Source of the DNA: a virus
Virus record (IMG/VR): IMGVR_UViG_3300028801_000008
Span: 37,167 to 101,166 of that record
Length of the DNA stretch: 64,000 nt
Direction: 5' to 3' (one strand)
In this document: one piece after another, positions 2,893-58,676 of the stretch
Layout: each line of letters begins with the position of its first letter
Position numbering within the stretch: position 1 is the first letter of the stretch
The notes under the pieces: generated by a model
What the model was told of the DNA's origin: nothing
The model's input: the letters and a program-made list of their open reading frames with translations, nothing else
Database searches by the model: none
Position numbers and translations under genes: made by a program

Positions 2893-3586
2893 ACGCCTCC
2901 AGTTCAGCCGGTGTGCCTACGTGGTTGAATTCATCGGCTGCGATCACCATGGCCGTGGTCAACTGCAAATTGTTGTGGCACGGTGCCAGATAGTACTCAC
3001 CGTTAGTCATCGTACTGAGAATCACCATCTCGTAGATGGCGCGCTTGGCAAGCTCCCACGACTGGAATGCATGAACGCCGCAAGAAGCAATACCGCTTAT
3101 GCGCTGCTTCTCCACCACCTGCGTCACTAAGTGATCCTTCATGATAACGAAACTGTAGCGCTCGCTGTCATCCTTAGGACGGAAGCACAGCATAGAAGAC
3201 TGCACGCCAGACTTGAAGCAAGCCTCACTAAACTCAGAGAACTTAGCAAGCACACCACTCTTGAAGATGGTGTCACAGTCCATGACCAGCACCGGATCGG
3301 TATCGCGAATCACACCTGACGCCGCCAACAAAGACATGGCCGCACCCTTCTGCACGAACCGAATGGGCACGCGGATCGGATGCATGTTCTTCGGCGTTTG
3401 CTTGTGAAGCTCACTGTACAAATCCACCAAGCACACAACGACAGGCGTCTTGATGATTTCAGACGCCTGGACCAGCGCATGCTGTATCATCGTGCGACCG
3501 CGCGCTGGGAGCAGCGGTTTAGGCGTCATTACCCCGTTACTGACAAATCGTTCACCGCGTCCTGCCGCCAGAATAACTACTTGCAT
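2867..3586 (-). CDS. sugar-phosphate nucleotidyltransferase (GlmU/RmlA-like)
   Basis: 239 residues with the nucleotidyltransferase signature LAAGRGERF...TPKPLLP at the N-terminus (about 6-28) and VLVMDCDTIF (about 98-107) as metal/nucleotide-binding Asp motif. Such enzymes join an NTP to a phosphorylated sugar, choline or glycerol-like group to give the activated NDP donor. It overlaps the APH-fold kinase gene by 10 bases, and the pair resembles the kinase plus cytidylyl/uridylyl transferase pairs of surface-polysaccharide loci. Here they sit with a glycosyltransferase and DNA-base enzymes. The actual substrate is unknown. Confidence 0.75.
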   Translation of the reverse strand: MQVVILAAGRGERFVSNGVMTPKPLLPARGRTMIQHALVQASEIIKTPVVVCLVDLYSELHKQTPKNMHPIRVPIRFVQKGAAMSLLAASGVIRDTDPVLVMDCDTIFKSGVLAKFSEFSEACFKSGVQSSMLCFRPKDDSERYSFVIMKDHLVTQVVEKQRISGIASCGVHAFQSWELAKRAIYEMVILSTMTNGEYYLAPCHNNLQLTTAMVIAADEFNHVGTPAELEAYEQAVPKA

Positions 3587-37097: not shown

Positions 37098-37224
37098 TGG
37101 CGGCTCCTTCCCAGCGCAGCTTCACCATCAAGTCGCAGAAATTGCTCCAGATGTTGGCCACCGTCAGCAGGCTGAAGATGAACGCCGTCAACACGACGAT
37201 CGGATGGTCGAACAAGAAGTCCAT
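37051..37224 (-). CDS. small membrane protein
   Basis: 57 residues from ATG 37224. MDFLFDHPIVVLTAFIFSLL gives one membrane segment and a charged C-terminal tail. It overlaps the zinc-finger gene by 47 bases in another frame. Confidence 0.55.
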   Translation of the reverse strand: MDFLFDHPIVVLTAFIFSLLTVANIWSNFCDLMVKLRWEGAANAKLDKKDDDQAGTA

Positions 37225-43795: not shown

Positions 43796-43977
43796 ACCGC
43801 CTCCAGAATACAGACAAAGAACCGGTCGGCCCAGCTGCCGCCGAGCTTCGTAGCCGCAATCTTCATCGCCTTGGCCGCTCGTAGCGCGACGGCGCGTGTG
43901 GGGTAGCCGTCCTGCACAATACGATACTCTTCGCCCTCGGCGTGGCAGCGAAGTATTGCGTAGGTCTGCTTCATCAC
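43792..43977 (-). CDS. small hypothetical protein
   Basis: 61 residues (MKQTYAILRCHAEGEEYRIV), strand-helix layout; ATGA overlaps. No family. Confidence 0.6.
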   Translation of the reverse strand: MMKQTYAILRCHAEGEEYRIVQDGYPTRAVALRAAKAMKIAATKLGGSWADRFFVCILEAV

Positions 43978-44558
43978 TCTATGTCCTCCGTGGGCCGTAC
44001 GAGGCTGGCCGGTGGCGCATCAATCAGATCCTCCAGGGTCAGGAACTCCGGCTGCTCCGTCATGGCCTGCTCCAACGACTTCGGCGCTGTAGAGTCCTCG
44101 ACCAGCATGACTTCGTCCTGAATCCCGGCGACTGGTGGGTCGACGAACAAGCCCTCGGGCCTGGTCTCAATGATGTCCGCGATCTTGGAGAAGGGCACTT
44201 CCGGCGACTGATCGTTCGTGTACGTCAGCAGCACGCGCGAACGGTCCAGACCCACTACGCACCCCATATCCGCGACCGGGTTCGTCAGTGGCACCGTGAA
44301 GGCACCGTTGTCGTCGCGCAGCCCCAACCAATCCATTACCTCGGGCTGATCCTCCAGCGCGCCGCCCTTCAGAAAGTCGGCACCGTCGATACTGACGCGG
44401 TGGACAGTCACGCCGTGCTTCTCGGCCACGACGCACGCCACGCCAAGGCAGCAATACCTGTCGCCCTCCATCTGCAACGTGGACTTCGCCCACCCATACT
44501 CGCCGCTACGCAACGCGGCCACCCACAGCTTCTGCGGTTCTGTCAACTCAGTTGCCAT
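43974..44558 (-). CDS. conserved phage protein (CCLGVAC family)
   Basis: 194 residues. LWVAALRSGEYGWAKSTLQM, RYCCLGVACVVAEKHG and a later strand-rich half match a phage family of unknown function seen again, shorter, at 45131-45526. It probably arose by duplication. An acidic C-terminal tail is unique to this copy. Confidence 0.65.
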   Translation of the reverse strand: MATELTEPQKLWVAALRSGEYGWAKSTLQMEGDRYCCLGVACVVAEKHGVTVHRVSIDGADFLKGGALEDQPEVMDWLGLRDDNGAFTVPLTNPVADMGCVVGLDRSRVLLTYTNDQSPEVPFSKIADIIETRPEGLFVDPPVAGIQDEVMLVEDSTAPKSLEQAMTEQPEFLTLEDLIDAPPASLVRPTEDIE

Positions 44559-44727: not shown

Positions 44728-45134
44728 TTGGCAACCTCCAGCACCAGCTTCCAGGCGCGCTTCTTGTGTCCCGAAGCGACCATGGAATGAAGCGTGTATG
44801 ACAGACCATTCACCAGACAGTAATGCATGATGAATGGCAGGATCGCCGCATCTCCGCTCTTCGGCCCGGTCTCACCGGCACGCACGAATGCCAATATCGC
44901 AGCCGTAATGGCGCGCTCGCTGGGCGTCAACCTGCCCTTGCCGAACACGGCCTGCACGTCGAGCGCGCGCACGCCGCGTCCGAGGCCATACGGCACAGAA
45001 AACAGCTGCTGACTGGTGCTGTCCGGGCTCTTGCCGTATTTTGCAACGATGGTGTCCACGACCTGGTCGTGCTTCTTCTTAGAGACCTTCTTGCCATTCA
45101 GGCGATACTCGTGCAACGGCGTCATTTCTGTCAT
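44724..45134 (-). CDS. hypothetical protein
   Basis: 136 residues, mostly helical, with basic N- and C-termini. No recognised family. It overlaps the paralogue gene upstream by four bases. Confidence 0.6.
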   Translation of the reverse strand: MTEMTPLHEYRLNGKKVSKKKHDQVVDTIVAKYGKSPDSTSQQLFSVPYGLGRGVRALDVQAVFGKGRLTPSERAITAAILAFVRAGETGPKSGDAAILPFIMHYCLVNGLSYTLHSMVASGHKKRAWKLVLEVAK

Positions 45135-45526
45135 CTCTTCACCGCCCTCTTCCGCTGCGCCACGAACAACACGTCCGATCTCTCCACGATCAGCGCCGCG
45201 ATCTTCTTGAACGGGTTGCGCTTCGACTCGTCGTTATACTCCGTCAAACTGTCGTAGTCGGAAAAGTCGCCTGTGTCGGTGCGCAGCCCCAGCCACTTCC
45301 GCACAGCGTGTTGGTCCTCCAGCGATGTGCCGTCGATGCGACCGTCAGTGCGCTTGACGTGAACGCCCTGCTGCTCGGCCACCACACACGCCACGCCAAG
45401 ACAGCAATACTGCCTCTTGCCGTCGTCGGACTGTAGACTGTCCGTGGCCCATCTGTATTTCCCGCTAGTCAGCGCGTCCACCCACATCTGCTGTGGCGCG
45501 GTCAGTTCTCTTTTCTTAGCAGCCAT
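45131..45526 (-). CDS. conserved phage protein (CCLGVAC family), second copy
   Basis: 131 residues. Same pattern as the 43974-44558 gene: MWVDALTSGKYRWATDSLQS, QYCCLGVACVVAEQQG and WLGLRTDTGDF. ATG 45526 has AAGAG upstream; a TATAAT site lies just beyond. Confidence 0.65.
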   Translation of the reverse strand: MAAKKRELTAPQQMWVDALTSGKYRWATDSLQSDDGKRQYCCLGVACVVAEQQGVHVKRTDGRIDGTSLEDQHAVRKWLGLRTDTGDFSDYDSLTEYNDESKRNPFKKIAALIVERSDVLFVAQRKRAVKR

Positions 45527-48966: not shown

Positions 48967-49248
48967 TTGAATTACTGCGTGCTATCGTTAGAAGAAGCTG
49001 GACGTATGGAACATTACGGTATCTGGCCAACGTGTAAGCATCATCGGCACATATCGAAACGTGACGCTGAGACGTTGATCAAAGCAGAGACGCATCGGCA
49101 AGTGGGCGGTATGAATACGGCGGTTGAATGCAGTACGTACATCGTATCGGTGAACGTCGGTTCGGTTTGGCAACCTGTGCCATGCTCTGATTGGAATGGC
49201 AAGCCTGTAAATGGTTTAAGAATTTGGGGACTTCCAAGAACTGTATAG
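48967..49248 (+). CDS. hypothetical protein, first rightward gene
   Basis: 93 residues if the TTG at 48967 is used; ATG 49006 would give 80. Neither has a good Shine-Dalgarno. GNAETLI-like helix, then VECSTYIVSVNVGSVWQPVP. The body looks like real protein. It is followed 13 bases later by a GIY-YIG gene. Confidence 0.5.
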   Translation: MNYCVLSLEEAGRMEHYGIWPTCKHHRHISKRDAETLIKAETHRQVGGMNTAVECSTYIVSVNVGSVWQPVPCSDWNGKPVNGLRIWGLPRTV

Positions 49249-49261
49249 TGCAGGAGTACGT

Positions 49262-49990
49262 ATGAAGAATGAACAGCAAGGTCTCATATACTACTTTCAT
49301 TGTACTGTAAATGGTAAGGGTTACGTAGGGCAGCATGAACGAGTAAATGAACTCGTTCGTTGGCGTGGGCACAAATGTGCTGCGTTTGTGAAGAAGATAA
49401 AGCATCCGCTGTATAATGCGATGCGTTTGTATGGGTGGGAAGCGTTTGAGAAATCAGTTGTTTGGCGTGGGCCTGTTTCGCTGTTGAATGAGAAAGAAGA
49501 ATTTTACATCGCGAAGCTTGACACGTTCATCGACAATGGTCACGGCTACAATCTCACCACTGGTGGTTGTGGTGGAATGCAGTTTTCAAAGAGATCATTA
49601 AAACTTCTTTCTAAGAAACAGAAAGCTGTGTGGGCAGATCCAGACTACCGAGCAAAGAAAACCGTACTCTTCGCTAGTAAAGAGTTTCGTGACTCAGTAA
49701 GCGCAGCATGTAAAGAGCGGTTTAAGGATCCCGTAAAGAAAGCTGCGCATCTGGAAGAGGTGCGATCACCACGTAGACGTAGCTTAGTCAGTAAACAGTC
49801 TAAGTCTATGTGGGCCACAAAACGTGAACTCTTGATGTCCAAGTTTGAAAGCCCAGAGTTTGTTGCTAAGTGTTCCGAAGCTTCTAAACGTGGTTGGGCA
49901 GCACGTTCGGCAGAAGACAGAGCAGCTTTATCCGCAAAGATTTGGGAAACGCGTCGCGCAAATGCAGCTAAGAAATTGGCTGCGAAGTGA
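49262..49990 (+). CDS. GIY-YIG homing endonuclease
   Basis: 242 residues, AGGAG upstream of ATG. The nuclease core reads GLIYYFHCTVNGKGYVGQ (GIY...YVG, about 7-24), RWRGHK and YNLTTGGCGG. The C-terminal half is a run of NUMOD3-like DNA-binding repeats (KAVWADPDYRAKKT, ERFKDPVKKAA). It is a paralogue of the 54970-55830 gene and probably a free-standing mobile gene. Confidence 0.85.
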   Translation: MKNEQQGLIYYFHCTVNGKGYVGQHERVNELVRWRGHKCAAFVKKIKHPLYNAMRLYGWEAFEKSVVWRGPVSLLNEKEEFYIAKLDTFIDNGHGYNLTTGGCGGMQFSKRSLKLLSKKQKAVWADPDYRAKKTVLFASKEFRDSVSAACKERFKDPVKKAAHLEEVRSPRRRSLVSKQSKSMWATKRELLMSKFESPEFVAKCSEASKRGWAARSAEDRAALSAKIWETRRANAAKKLAAK

Positions 49991-50245: not shown

Positions 50246-50251
50246 TATAAT
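50246..50251 (+). promoter_or_regulatory. TATAAT -10-like element
   Basis: Plus-strand TATAATATATG, about 90 bases before the tRNA-like gene. No clear -35. Confidence 0.3.
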
Positions 50252-50338: not shown

Positions 50339-50402
50339 CGGTGAATGGCGCGCTAGCTTTGGGAGCTAGATGCCGGAGGTTCAAATCCTTCTTCACCGAC
50401 CA
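50339..50402 (+). tRNA. tRNA-Pro(UGG)-like gene lacking a D-arm
   Basis: Acceptor CGGTGAA (50339-50345) pairs perfectly with TTCACCG (50392-50398), followed by A and encoded CCA (50400-50402). The anticodon arm CTAGC/GCTAG encloses TTTGGGA, anticodon UGG at 34-36. T-arm GGAGG/CCTTC encloses TTCAAAT. Only seven bases (TGGCGCG) lie between acceptor and anticodon arm, where a D-arm of about 16 should be; they look like a tRNA-Pro D-stem collapsed between its two GCGC halves. Either a tRNA remnant or a minimal tRNA-like RNA. Confidence 0.6.
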
Positions 50403-50881
50403 TATTGCTCAGAAGCTATGGGCAATCGAGCCATCTAGGCTGGACCACCACGTTACCCAGATAGATGTACTCACGTTCTTTGACCAAACTGTTGAGAGAC
50501 ACTCTTTGAGTGTGCATGTCCTGGACTCGGGGTTATCGAGCACCCTTCCTCCGCGCTCTCCGGATAGGGCAGCCGCAGTGAGTGCGGCAAAGTTCTCGTG
50601 AGTAACGACGACCGTTCAGCTTACTTTAGAGTGAGCATGCCATTGGCACCCATAACGGAAACAGTTACATCGGCGGCACTCTACGGAGGCCGCACGACAT
50701 TGAGCGTGGTTAGCAGCGACCAGGGTGTCACTCGATAAGTAGTACGAGTTGACCAGTAAGAACACCTAATAGCTGCCTGCTCTGAAGAAGAGTGCAAGTA
50801 GACGGACGTCCAGAGGGGCTGCTGACCGCACAACGTGGTTCGCGGCCCTTCCTTGCTTTAAGTCCCAGGAGATATAACCGC

Positions 50882-51574
50882 ATGGCATCTAAGAAGCAGT
50901 CTAAGGCCACCGCGCCTGCTGCTAAGGTGCCGGCAAAAACGCACGACGGTCGTCCCACACGAGCAGAGAAGTCCGCAGCCAATAAGACTGTGTTTCGTGC
51001 TGTGCAAGCAGAATCACAACGTAAAGCCAAAGAATCTGTTGCCGAAGTAAAGCTCGCCATTCAGGACCAAGTAGTTTCAGAGCGGAAGGTTGGTCGACCA
51101 CCGAATCCAGAATTTCCATGGACAGACGAGCTCGGCGAGCAACTCTTTGCGCTGATCGCTACTGGCAGCACGTTACGTGAATTAGCAGCCATCGAAGGAA
51201 ACCCGAGTCTGTATCAACTCGTGAAGTGGCTTGCAGATAAAGAACACTCCTTCTCGAAAATCCATGCGCGCGCGAAAGAGTTTCTTGTACCACTTTTCGA
51301 AGACGACGCAAGGGCAATAACTCAACGTCCTACAAGCTACTCCATCGTCACCCATAAGCAAGTCGTTACTCGGGACGGCGACGTTGAGGATCTAGTAGAG
51401 AGTCGCATCGTCGACAACGTCGAGAGAGCCAAGCTCGCATTCGCCGGGTTACAGTGGACATTGGGCCATCTACAGCCCAAGAAGCATGGACGCCAGCCTG
51501 ACCTCGGCGGCGGTGGAAAGAACGAGCAGCTGGAAGGTTTGTTTGCAGCACTAAAGGCTGGGCCGAGTGAGTGA
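50882..51574 (+). CDS. terS: terminase small subunit
   Basis: 230 residues from ATG 50882 (AGGAG upstream). Basic N-terminus, a predicted HTH region with GSTLRELAAIEGNPSLYQLV (about 100-119), a central oligomerisation-like part and a Gly-rich end. It directly precedes and overlaps the large terminase, the usual TerS place. It would recognise the packaging site. Confidence 0.75.
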   Translation: MASKKQSKATAPAAKVPAKTHDGRPTRAEKSAANKTVFRAVQAESQRKAKESVAEVKLAIQDQVVSERKVGRPPNPEFPWTDELGEQLFALIATGSTLRELAAIEGNPSLYQLVKWLADKEHSFSKIHARAKEFLVPLFEDDARAITQRPTSYSIVTHKQVVTRDGDVEDLVESRIVDNVERAKLAFAGLQWTLGHLQPKKHGRQPDLGGGGKNEQLEGLFAALKAGPSE

Positions 51575-52856
51575 CACCGAGCTGATCATCAAGCCCTTCG
51601 GCAAGAAGTCGCATTCCTTCATCATGCGACCGCCGGAGCAGGACAAGCGGTACACCATCCTTATTGGCACAGTGCGAAGTTCTAAGACCTTCACGCTGAA
51701 CGCCAAGACGATCGTGCAATTGTGCCGTTATAAGATACCGCCCAACGCCAAGCGGCTGATGACGGGCGCGTCAAAGCAAACGATCTACCGCAACGTACTC
51801 ATCGATCTGTTCAACGTTGTAGGCAAGGACAACTACAGTTACAACTCGTCCACTGGCGAGCTCTGGCTGTTCGGCACGCAGTGGTTCGTTATGGGTGCCA
51901 AGGACGAAGCGTCTTATCGCCAAATCCTTGGTATGACAATCGGCATCGCCATTGGCGACGAAGTTGTCGAGTATCCAAAGTCATTCCTCGCGCAGCTGTT
52001 CCTTCGTATGTCCCCGGCTGGAGCGCGCTTCTACGCCTCCACCAACACGTCGAATCCCTATTGCTATTTAAAGGCTGAGGTCATCGACTCTCCGGCGTTC
52101 AAGGACGACCTGGAGATCATCAACTTCGGACTGGCCGATAACCCCAACATCGATGAGAAGTCAAAGCTGGCCATCATCGCTTCGCAGACCGGCGTCTACT
52201 ACCAACGCTACATACTTGCGCAGTGGGTAGTTGCTGAAGGCAGCATCTATCGGGACAGCTACGACGAGACGGCTAACCTATTCGACGGCGTGTTGACTAA
52301 GGACGGAGTGGTTACGGTGCTTCCACCGGAGCCCATCGCTCTGCGCAACGCGGGTGGGTTTGTCGACCATTGGTTCGCTGTCGATCCTGGCGTGGATCAC
52401 GTCCAGTCGCACTTAGAGTTCTACGACGACGGCGACGTTATATGGTGTGTGCGCGAGCAGCGTTGGGACAGCCGCAAAGAAATGCGCATGAAGACCGACG
52501 GCCAATACGCCGACGATCTAGTCGCAATCGGAGCCGATAAGTTCCAGGTGATTGTACCGCCCGAAGCGGCGTCGTTCAAGCAGGAGCTCATACAACGTGG
52601 CTTCTGGGTCACGGACGCCGACAACTCCGTCAAGGAAGGCATCCATACAGTGTCTACGCTGCTGCAGCGCCGGAAGCTGATGATTAGTAAGAATGGTTGC
52701 CCGGAGCTCGTGAAGCGAATTCCCAATTACGCATGGGATTCTAACGCTGCTAAACGTGGCATCGAGCAGCCACTGAAGATTGAGGATGACGATCTGGACG
52801 CGTTGCGTTACGGTGTGCACGGTAAGATCCCCAACTGGCGAATCTCGTTAGGATGA
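51567..52856 (+). CDS. terL: terminase large subunit
   Basis: 429 residues from a GTG overlapping the TerS stop. Walker A GTVRSSKT (about 34-41), Walker B IGIAIGDEVVEY (about 125-136), and the C-terminal nuclease with WFAVDPGVDH and a late DDDLDALRYGVHG, the RNase H-like metal residues. It powers packaging and cuts DNA. It is followed by an HNH gene, as in many tailed phages. Confidence 0.9.
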   Translation: MSDTELIIKPFGKKSHSFIMRPPEQDKRYTILIGTVRSSKTFTLNAKTIVQLCRYKIPPNAKRLMTGASKQTIYRNVLIDLFNVVGKDNYSYNSSTGELWLFGTQWFVMGAKDEASYRQILGMTIGIAIGDEVVEYPKSFLAQLFLRMSPAGARFYASTNTSNPYCYLKAEVIDSPAFKDDLEIINFGLADNPNIDEKSKLAIIASQTGVYYQRYILAQWVVAEGSIYRDSYDETANLFDGVLTKDGVVTVLPPEPIALRNAGGFVDHWFAVDPGVDHVQSHLEFYDDGDVIWCVREQRWDSRKEMRMKTDGQYADDLVAIGADKFQVIVPPEAASFKQELIQRGFWVTDADNSVKEGIHTVSTLLQRRKLMISKNGCPELVKRIPNYAWDSNAAKRGIEQPLKIEDDDLDALRYGVHGKIPNWRISLG

Positions 52857-54872: not shown

Positions 54873-54907
54873 GAAATAAATCTTCAAAGATAGGTCCTGC
54901 AGACCGA

Positions 54908-54942
54908 CAAGGCCGCTCATCTCCGGGCGGCCTTCTTTGATT
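54908..54942 (+). terminator. rho-independent terminator
   Basis: AAGGCCGC (54908-54915) pairs with GCGGCCTT (54926-54933), followed by CTTTGATTT on the plus strand. It ends the transcript before the second GIY-YIG gene. Confidence 0.75.
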
Positions 54943-54969
54943 TAACTACCGGAGCCGCTGGAGATAGCG

Positions 54970-55830
54970 ATGAAGAAATCGAAGCAAGAACAGATTGGGT
55001 GTATATACCATTCTGTAAATCTAAAGAATGACATGGGATACGTTGGTCAGCATAAGAACGTGCTGACTGTGCTGAAACGATGGAAAGGTCACGTAGGACA
55101 AGCACGTAAAGGATGCAAGTCCTACTTCCACAGTGCACTGCGTAAGAACAAGTACGAAGAGGGTTTCAGTTGGGAAGTGATCTGGACTGGCCCAATAAGT
55201 CGTCTGAATGAAATGGAAACGTATTACATCGCGAAGCTGCACACGTTCGTTGACGACCCGTTAGGTGGTGGCTACAACCTGACACGCGGCGGTGGACAGC
55301 ACATAGAATTCGGTGCCGTAGCTAGAAACAACATGCGCAAAGCGCAGTTAAAACGATTCTCTGACCCGGCTGTACGTGCTAGTGTCGCAGCAGCATGTAG
55401 GAAGACATTCGCTGACCCAGAAGTTAGGGCTTACGTTAGCTCGCAACTGAAGGCAAAGCACGCAGCCGATCCTGATCTGCGCAAACGGTGTGCGCGCCCT
55501 AGGACGGCTAAATTCAAAGCCAATACTAGCAAGATGTTCAAACGCTTGTGGGAAGACCCTGTTTGGCGAGCTAACCACGGCGCTAACGTTGGTAAGAAGA
55601 AAACACCTGCGCAGAAACAAGCATGTTCCGAGCGCGCCAAAGCGCAATGGGCCAATAAAGAAAGCCGCGCTAAACTAGAACGTGGGCTGCAGAACATGAA
55701 TCGTGCACCACAGTCTACGGAAGTACTATCACAACGTGCTAAGTCACAGTGGGCCGACAGAGACTACAGATCACGGCAGTCGAAGAGCAGACTAGCTTCT
55801 TGGGCACGCCGCAAAGCTCTAGCAAAATAA
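54970..55830 (+). CDS. GIY-YIG homing endonuclease, second copy
   Basis: 286 residues. IGCIYHSVNLKNDMGYVGQ (about 8-26) is the GIY-YIG core; GYNLTRGGG is the C-terminal part of the nuclease fold. The tail is a long series of NUMOD3-like repeats (KRFSDPAVRASVAAACRKTF). Clearly a paralogue of the 49262-49990 gene; it sits between a terminator and the next gene, so it may be an insertion. Confidence 0.85.
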   Translation: MKKSKQEQIGCIYHSVNLKNDMGYVGQHKNVLTVLKRWKGHVGQARKGCKSYFHSALRKNKYEEGFSWEVIWTGPISRLNEMETYYIAKLHTFVDDPLGGGYNLTRGGGQHIEFGAVARNNMRKAQLKRFSDPAVRASVAAACRKTFADPEVRAYVSSQLKAKHAADPDLRKRCARPRTAKFKANTSKMFKRLWEDPVWRANHGANVGKKKTPAQKQACSERAKAQWANKESRAKLERGLQNMNRAPQSTEVLSQRAKSQWADRDYRSRQSKSRLASWARRKALAK

Positions 55831-58496: not shown

Positions 58497-58676
58497 ATGA
58501 AGAAGTTCAGGATATACGCGGGCGGCAAGGAGCTAACCGTGGAGGCCGACTGCTACAAGCAGGTCGGCTGCGAAATCGTCTTTTACAAGGACAACGCGGC
58601 CGTGGGCCAGGTCGTCATGGACAAGGGCGACGTCGTGATGGAGGCCTCCGCCGTCAAGGACTTCGCGACGTTTTGA
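58497..58676 (+). CDS. small hypothetical protein
   Basis: 59 residues beginning MKKFRIYAGGKELTVEADCY; strands with a ...YKDNAAV... turn. GGAG upstream. No family. Confidence 0.6.
   Translation: MKKFRIYAGGKELTVEADCYKQVGCEIVFYKDNAAVGQVVMDKGDVVMEASAVKDFATF

Follow-up and report, generated by a model that had tools for sequence, protein, structure and literature searches.

Probable loss of the D-arm from a phage tRNA-Pro(UGG) gene by one 13-bp deletion at the GCGC repeats of its D-stem

A 2014 review describes bacterial tRNA genes as structurally uniform and draws its armless tRNAs from metazoan mitochondria (PMC4033280). D-armless tRNAs of metazoan mitochondria, such as mt-tRNA-Ser(GCU) and those of nematodes, keep three arms and replace the D-arm by a short linker. 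The same layout, with the remaining arms whole, is found at positions 50339-50402 of the 64,000-nt stretch of viral DNA that we analysed (the window; positions 37,167 to 101,166 of IMG/VR record IMGVR_UViG_3300028801_000008). Unlike its mitochondrial counterparts, this gene is phage-borne, has a T loop of the bacterial type, and encodes its CCA. Non-canonical and partial tRNA genes of prokaryotes resemble it in being tRNA-like without an essential part (PMC9897764), but what the window gene appears to have undergone is an internal D-arm deletion with the rest left whole, and it is neither an integration fragment nor a CRISPR fragment. In the open-access literature (subscription papers being outside the scope), D-armless tRNAs and phages were found together solely in a mitochondrial review. 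We consider it probable that the window gene is a dispensable phage tRNA-Pro(UGG) that recently lost its D-arm by one 13-bp deletion at GCGC and is now at an early stage of decay.

The gene lies on the plus strand and is 64 nt long including CCA; a reading of the sequence together with a count of base pairs shows that the D-arm is absent. The acceptor stem is formed by CGGTGAA (50339-50345) and TTCACCG (50392-50398), and the 3' segment (50392-50402) continues with A73 and the encoded CCA. The anticodon arm (CTAGC-TTTGGGA-GCTAG, 50353-50369), with the anticodon TGG at 50360-50362, is followed by the variable loop ATGCC (50370-50374) and by a T arm with a canonical T loop (GGAGG-TTCAAAT-CCTTC, 50375-50391); the T arm and the 3' segment were assigned by Rfam alignment as well as by pair count. 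All 17 stem pairs are standard (7/7 in the acceptor stem and 5/5 each in the anticodon and T stems), the one G-U pair being in the T arm. Between the acceptor and anticodon stems, where a canonical tRNA-Pro(UGG) has a D-arm with A14, G15, U17a, G18 and G19, there is the 7-nt linker TGGCGCG alone (50346-50352, from comparison with the intact gene of a related phage, L010); C48 in the variable loop is kept and its partner G15 is gone. In other respects the gene is canonical, with the UGG anticodon in a 7-nt loop with U33 and G37 (TTTGGGA), a 7-bp acceptor stem, a 5-bp T stem, C1-G72, A73 and CCA. A preliminary description of this DNA had already stated that the acceptor, anticodon and T arms pair well, that CCA is encoded, and that seven bases stand in place of the D-arm; each of these statements holds, and the coordinates are exact.

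The match to the Rfam tRNA family (RF00005) scores 49.4 bits against a gathering threshold of 29 in an alignment that passes over most of the D-arm, and has an E-value of 2.5e-8 in 11 kb and 5.5e-11 in the 101-kb record; given these values, it is not a chance match. Rfam finds two tRNAs in the full record; the second, an intact tRNA-Gln(UUG), is at position 3201 of the record and falls outside the window. The standard ARAGORN model calls zero tRNAs in the window. By contrast, the ARAGORN mitochondrial model (-mtd), of the type that had been suggested as a check, calls mtRNA-Pro(tgg) at exactly 50339-50402; it makes 11 further calls in the window, none of which coincides with an Rfam tRNA match in the full record. 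Five further IMG/VR contigs cover the site and are identical across 892 bases around it, and most of them share 100% identity with the window across 7-17 kb; one (L002) matches the window identically to about position 58530 and diverges beyond, joining different sequence. The window record and the five spanning contigs look like one phage population. These contigs bear on the possibility that the missing D-arm reflects a deletion introduced into an intact tRNA gene by sequencing or assembly, which we judge extremely improbable: assembly collapse could in principle leave a 13-nt gap between short repeats, but the repeat here is just 4 nt, and the same 64-nt form occurs in the window record and in five other separately named contigs, including the one with a differing continuation, which argues against such a deletion. 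A sequencing artefact, which the preliminary description had named as grounds for abandoning its reading, is thus an unlikely source of the 64-nt form.

A search with the large terminase subunit (51567-52856, plus strand; phrog_2, 1.3e-26) recovered 18 related contigs. In a sister clade (L008-L012; TerL 83% aa), an intact 77-nt tRNA-Pro(UGG) (65.9 bits) lies between the orthologue of the ORF at 48967-49248 and the terminase small subunit gene terS, which in the window is the syntenic anchor downstream of the tRNA (50882-51574, plus strand; phrog_1482, 5.3e-12). Relatives with an intact tRNA-Pro at the site, which it had been proposed to look for, therefore exist. The intact gene shares with the window gene its anticodon, C1-G72, A73, T loop, CCA and position upstream of terS; the window gene differs in being without the 13 nt of one D-stem half plus D loop, and in flanks that do not align with those of L010. 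Since the flanks are unalignable, the orthology of the two tRNAs rests on position, and a tRNA-Pro acquired separately could have served as the intact precursor. Between the window and L010 tRNAs, 45 of the 64 shared positions agree, and both sides have changed in 7 of the 17 stem pairs, with none broken and none changed one-sidedly; this pattern suggests either that the stems were constrained for most of the divergence or that the two tRNAs were acquired separately.

Other relatives indicate that this tRNA is not always retained. There is no tRNA at the site in L013 (TerL 69% aa), where flanks near-identical to those of L010 enclose CGGT and CA from the ends of the tRNA; we read this as a clean tRNA loss that left a scar. 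That the flanks are near-identical and the gene between them is absent argues that the tRNA is dispensable in this phage group. Judged from the aligned loci, the state of the tRNA varies among relatives, which have it intact, D-armless or lost; a single haplotype of the D-armless site was found, and the sister clade keeps the D-arm. More distant relatives have no tRNA near the terminase by Rfam, and one of them (L015) has tRNAs close to the end of its contig. Between L013:955-1200 and L010:6960-7260, the intergenic sequence preceding terS is near-identical and the terS gene downstream is clearly diverged, suggesting that the upstream region was recently exchanged.

The intact gene suggests how the D-arm could have been lost. 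Its D-stem reads GCGC...GCGC. GCGC is palindromic, equalling its reverse complement, and both D-stem strands are therefore direct repeats in the DNA, such that replication slippage or short-repeat recombination can excise the D-arm. An in-register GCGC/GCGC slip in L010 removes AGTCTGGTAGCGC; these 13 nt comprise one D-stem half and the 9-nt loop, and are exactly the difference between 77 and 64 nt. The earlier proposal of a deletion between GCGC halves of the D-stem is borne out to this extent. We propose that a single 13-bp deletion between the GCGC halves took the D-arm from a phage tRNA-Pro(UGG): replication slippage or short-repeat recombination would have cut out one D-stem half and the D loop and fused the remainder, retaining the acceptor, anticodon and T arms and the CCA, and the GCGC at 50348-50351 within the linker would be the fused D-stem half. 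Slippage is the presumed mechanism, and the direction of change, from intact to D-armless, is presumed from the rarity of the D-armless form. Among the matches listed, those to tRNA-Pro of annotated phages begin at or just past the junction (query base at least 13), as a fusion of the 5' and 3' parts at that point would predict.

The deletion product would lack the U8-A14, G15:C48 and G18/G19 contacts and U17a, and bacterial ProRS and the ribosome would be expected to accept it poorly; most likely, the phage no longer needs tRNA-Pro(UGG) and the gene is early in decay. Bacterial proline identity depends on A73, G72, G35, G36, G37 and G49, together with the G15:C48 Levitt pair and U17a (PMC9976931). 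The window gene keeps A73, G72, G35, G36, G37, G49 and C48, and loses G15, U17a, A14, G18 and G19; given the loss of the ProRS determinants G15 and U17a and of A14, G18 and G19, we expect poor charging and a poor L-shape of the 64-nt RNA. As in a tRNA pseudogene, an essential part is gone and relatives have an intact homologue at the same place, but the further disabling stem mutations of a pseudogene are absent. Indeed, the wholeness of all 17 remaining pairs, the lack of any visible decay mutation besides the D-arm deletion, and the retention of A73, G72, G35, G36, G37 and G49 count against decay. In a simulation of neutral decay, all pairs and key T-loop bases survived four random substitutions 6.6% of the time and five substitutions 3.5% of the time, and this low survival implies a young deletion in the case of a neutral gene; the alternative to youth is selection acting on the three-arm RNA. 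Mitochondrial tRNAs without a D-arm usually have an altered partner loop, so the canonical T loop argues for youth. Recency of the deletion and loss of function are both presumed in this reading. Decay was among several alternatives offered in the preliminary description and is the best supported of them, with an intact gene in relatives and an exact 13-nt difference.

Similar genes occur elsewhere. A scan of the species-genome collection with a D-armless tRNA-Pro pattern gave one match, in the Arsenophonus endosymbiont of Aleurodicus floccissimus (L037:2465-2528, minus strand), which is a 64-nt tRNA-Pro(UGG) with all three arms present. Like the window gene, it has a UGG anticodon, is 64 nt long, keeps GCGC, and is 13 nt shorter than an intact gene, in this case the tRNA-Pro(UGG) on a separate contig of the same genome; unlike the window gene, it belongs to a bacterial chromosome and is an extra copy, redundant given the intact gene. 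It lies between haemagglutinin-like ORF fragments and other genes. In IMG/VR, all matches to the D-armless tRNA-Pro pattern besides the window phage lacked a T arm. Scans of viral contigs for any anticodon (GCGC-type with T8-G9, and a TGGCGC variant) gave, besides the window phage, one true case, a 64-nt D-armless tRNA-Lys(UUU) with CCA (L207:3240-3303, minus strand; 53.7 bits). It sits in a cluster with nine ARAGORN-called tRNAs and is itself missed by standard ARAGORN; the contig encodes a T4-like RNase H relative. Among the matches listed, a generic TAGCGC pattern in viral contigs mostly picked up intact tRNAs through their 3' D-stem half, and a version excluding a preceding G was likewise uninformative among the matches listed. 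Four other candidates (L206 and L208-L210) were rejected as their structure does not form; L208, a viral contig, has a match to the suhB/mmgR small RNA (L208:2344-2418, minus strand; 67.9 bits). A loose structural finder applied to the 2.4 Mb of loci examined gave no further full three-arm case, its remaining rows fitting worse. Since the scan patterns required GCGC and this length, they cannot show that GCGC-type deletions are the sole kind.

At the window locus, a phage population thus carries a clean three-arm tRNA gene for which there is an intact sister counterpart and a plausible one-step origin. We suggest as a rule that one 13-bp slip can strip the D-arm from tRNAs with a GCGC-palindrome D-stem, producing 64-nt genes that escape standard ARAGORN; we found two more examples. 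Should one of these genes prove functional, a bacterial translation system would be shown to tolerate D-armless tRNAs. The interest is modest, since the architecture recurs and its function is directly testable.

It is unlikely, in our estimation, that the 64-nt tRNA-Pro is made, charged and used, with the linker substituting for the D-arm as in metazoan mitochondria. The three perfect remaining arms, the encoded CCA, the 7-nt linker and the retention of most ProRS determinants beyond the D-arm would fit such a role, as would the occurrence in a second phage of a D-armless tRNA-Lys amid intact tRNAs. The predicted fold of the RNA is stabler than all 200 shuffles (z -3.3), and the minimum-energy fold pairs GGCG in the linker (50347-50350) with UGCC in the variable loop, lengthening the anticodon stem in a way that would stiffen the RNA. 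This predicted pairing is probably a coincidence, however, and need not be compensatory, since in L031 an ordinary tRNA half likewise has a GCC variable loop beside this anticodon 3' strand. Moreover, the G15:C48 and U17a determinants are gone, the T loop shows no co-adaptation, diverged D-armless relatives were not found, and we know of no adapted EF-Tu or synthetase for a phage D-armless tRNA. It is similarly doubtful that there is a working D-armless tRNA outside metazoan mitochondria, in the form of this phage tRNA-Pro and of tRNA-Lys elsewhere, that serves translation or baits a defence. Quite improbable, too, is a decoy or fragment source that has no need of a D-arm, the anticodon arm baiting a host anticodon nuclease or giving regulatory fragments. 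The anticodon arm is perfect, and the tRNA-Lys(UUU) of the second phage bears an anticodon targeted by known anticodon nucleases, but 7/7 acceptor pairs and a CCA would be superfluous for a decoy, and viral contigs gave no other D-armless tRNA-Pro for the patterns used. Phage-encoded tRNAs are discussed as countering tRNA-cleaving defences (PMC11455837), as a decoy would.

In prokaryotic genomes, tRNA fragments are a common residue of integration (PMC9897764), and the 3' half of a tRNA-Pro with CCA, which looks like an attachment-site half, lies near a contig end in L031 (L031:114-162, at the contig start; AGCTTTGGGAGCTAGAAGCC...). The window gene is nevertheless very improbable as an attachment site or integration scar with part of a host tRNA gene: tyrosine integrase (PF00589) and large serine recombinase (PF07508) domains were not found in the 101-kb record, which may be incomplete, both acceptor strands (5' and 3') are present and fully paired, and the gene adjoins terS, where sister phages hold a whole tRNA. 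The earlier suggestion of an attachment-like sequence is accordingly disfavoured, and decay after a D-arm deletion remains our preferred reading.

Upstream of the tRNA is a GIY-YIG homing endonuclease gene (49262-49990, plus strand; phrog_314, 1.7e-19; phrog_5123, GIY-YIG), which is matched by no ORF of at least 80 aa in the corresponding interval of L010. A TATAAT lies about 90 nt upstream of the tRNA (50246-50251), with no scored promoter. About 460 bp between the tRNA and terS (50403-50860) are without a clear gene, cannot be aligned with the sister clade, and, as non-coding flank, match no known RNA family in Rfam. In four ORFs, counts of proline codons were unremarkable. Further downstream, a sub-threshold match to the int-alpA RNA (54883-54955, plus strand; 30.8 bits against a gathering threshold of 35.8) lies immediately upstream of a second homing endonuclease gene (54970-55830). 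Two neighbouring genes on the minus strand (43974-44558 and 45131-45526) both belong to phrog_18067, a PHROG of unknown function, and are probably a duplication.
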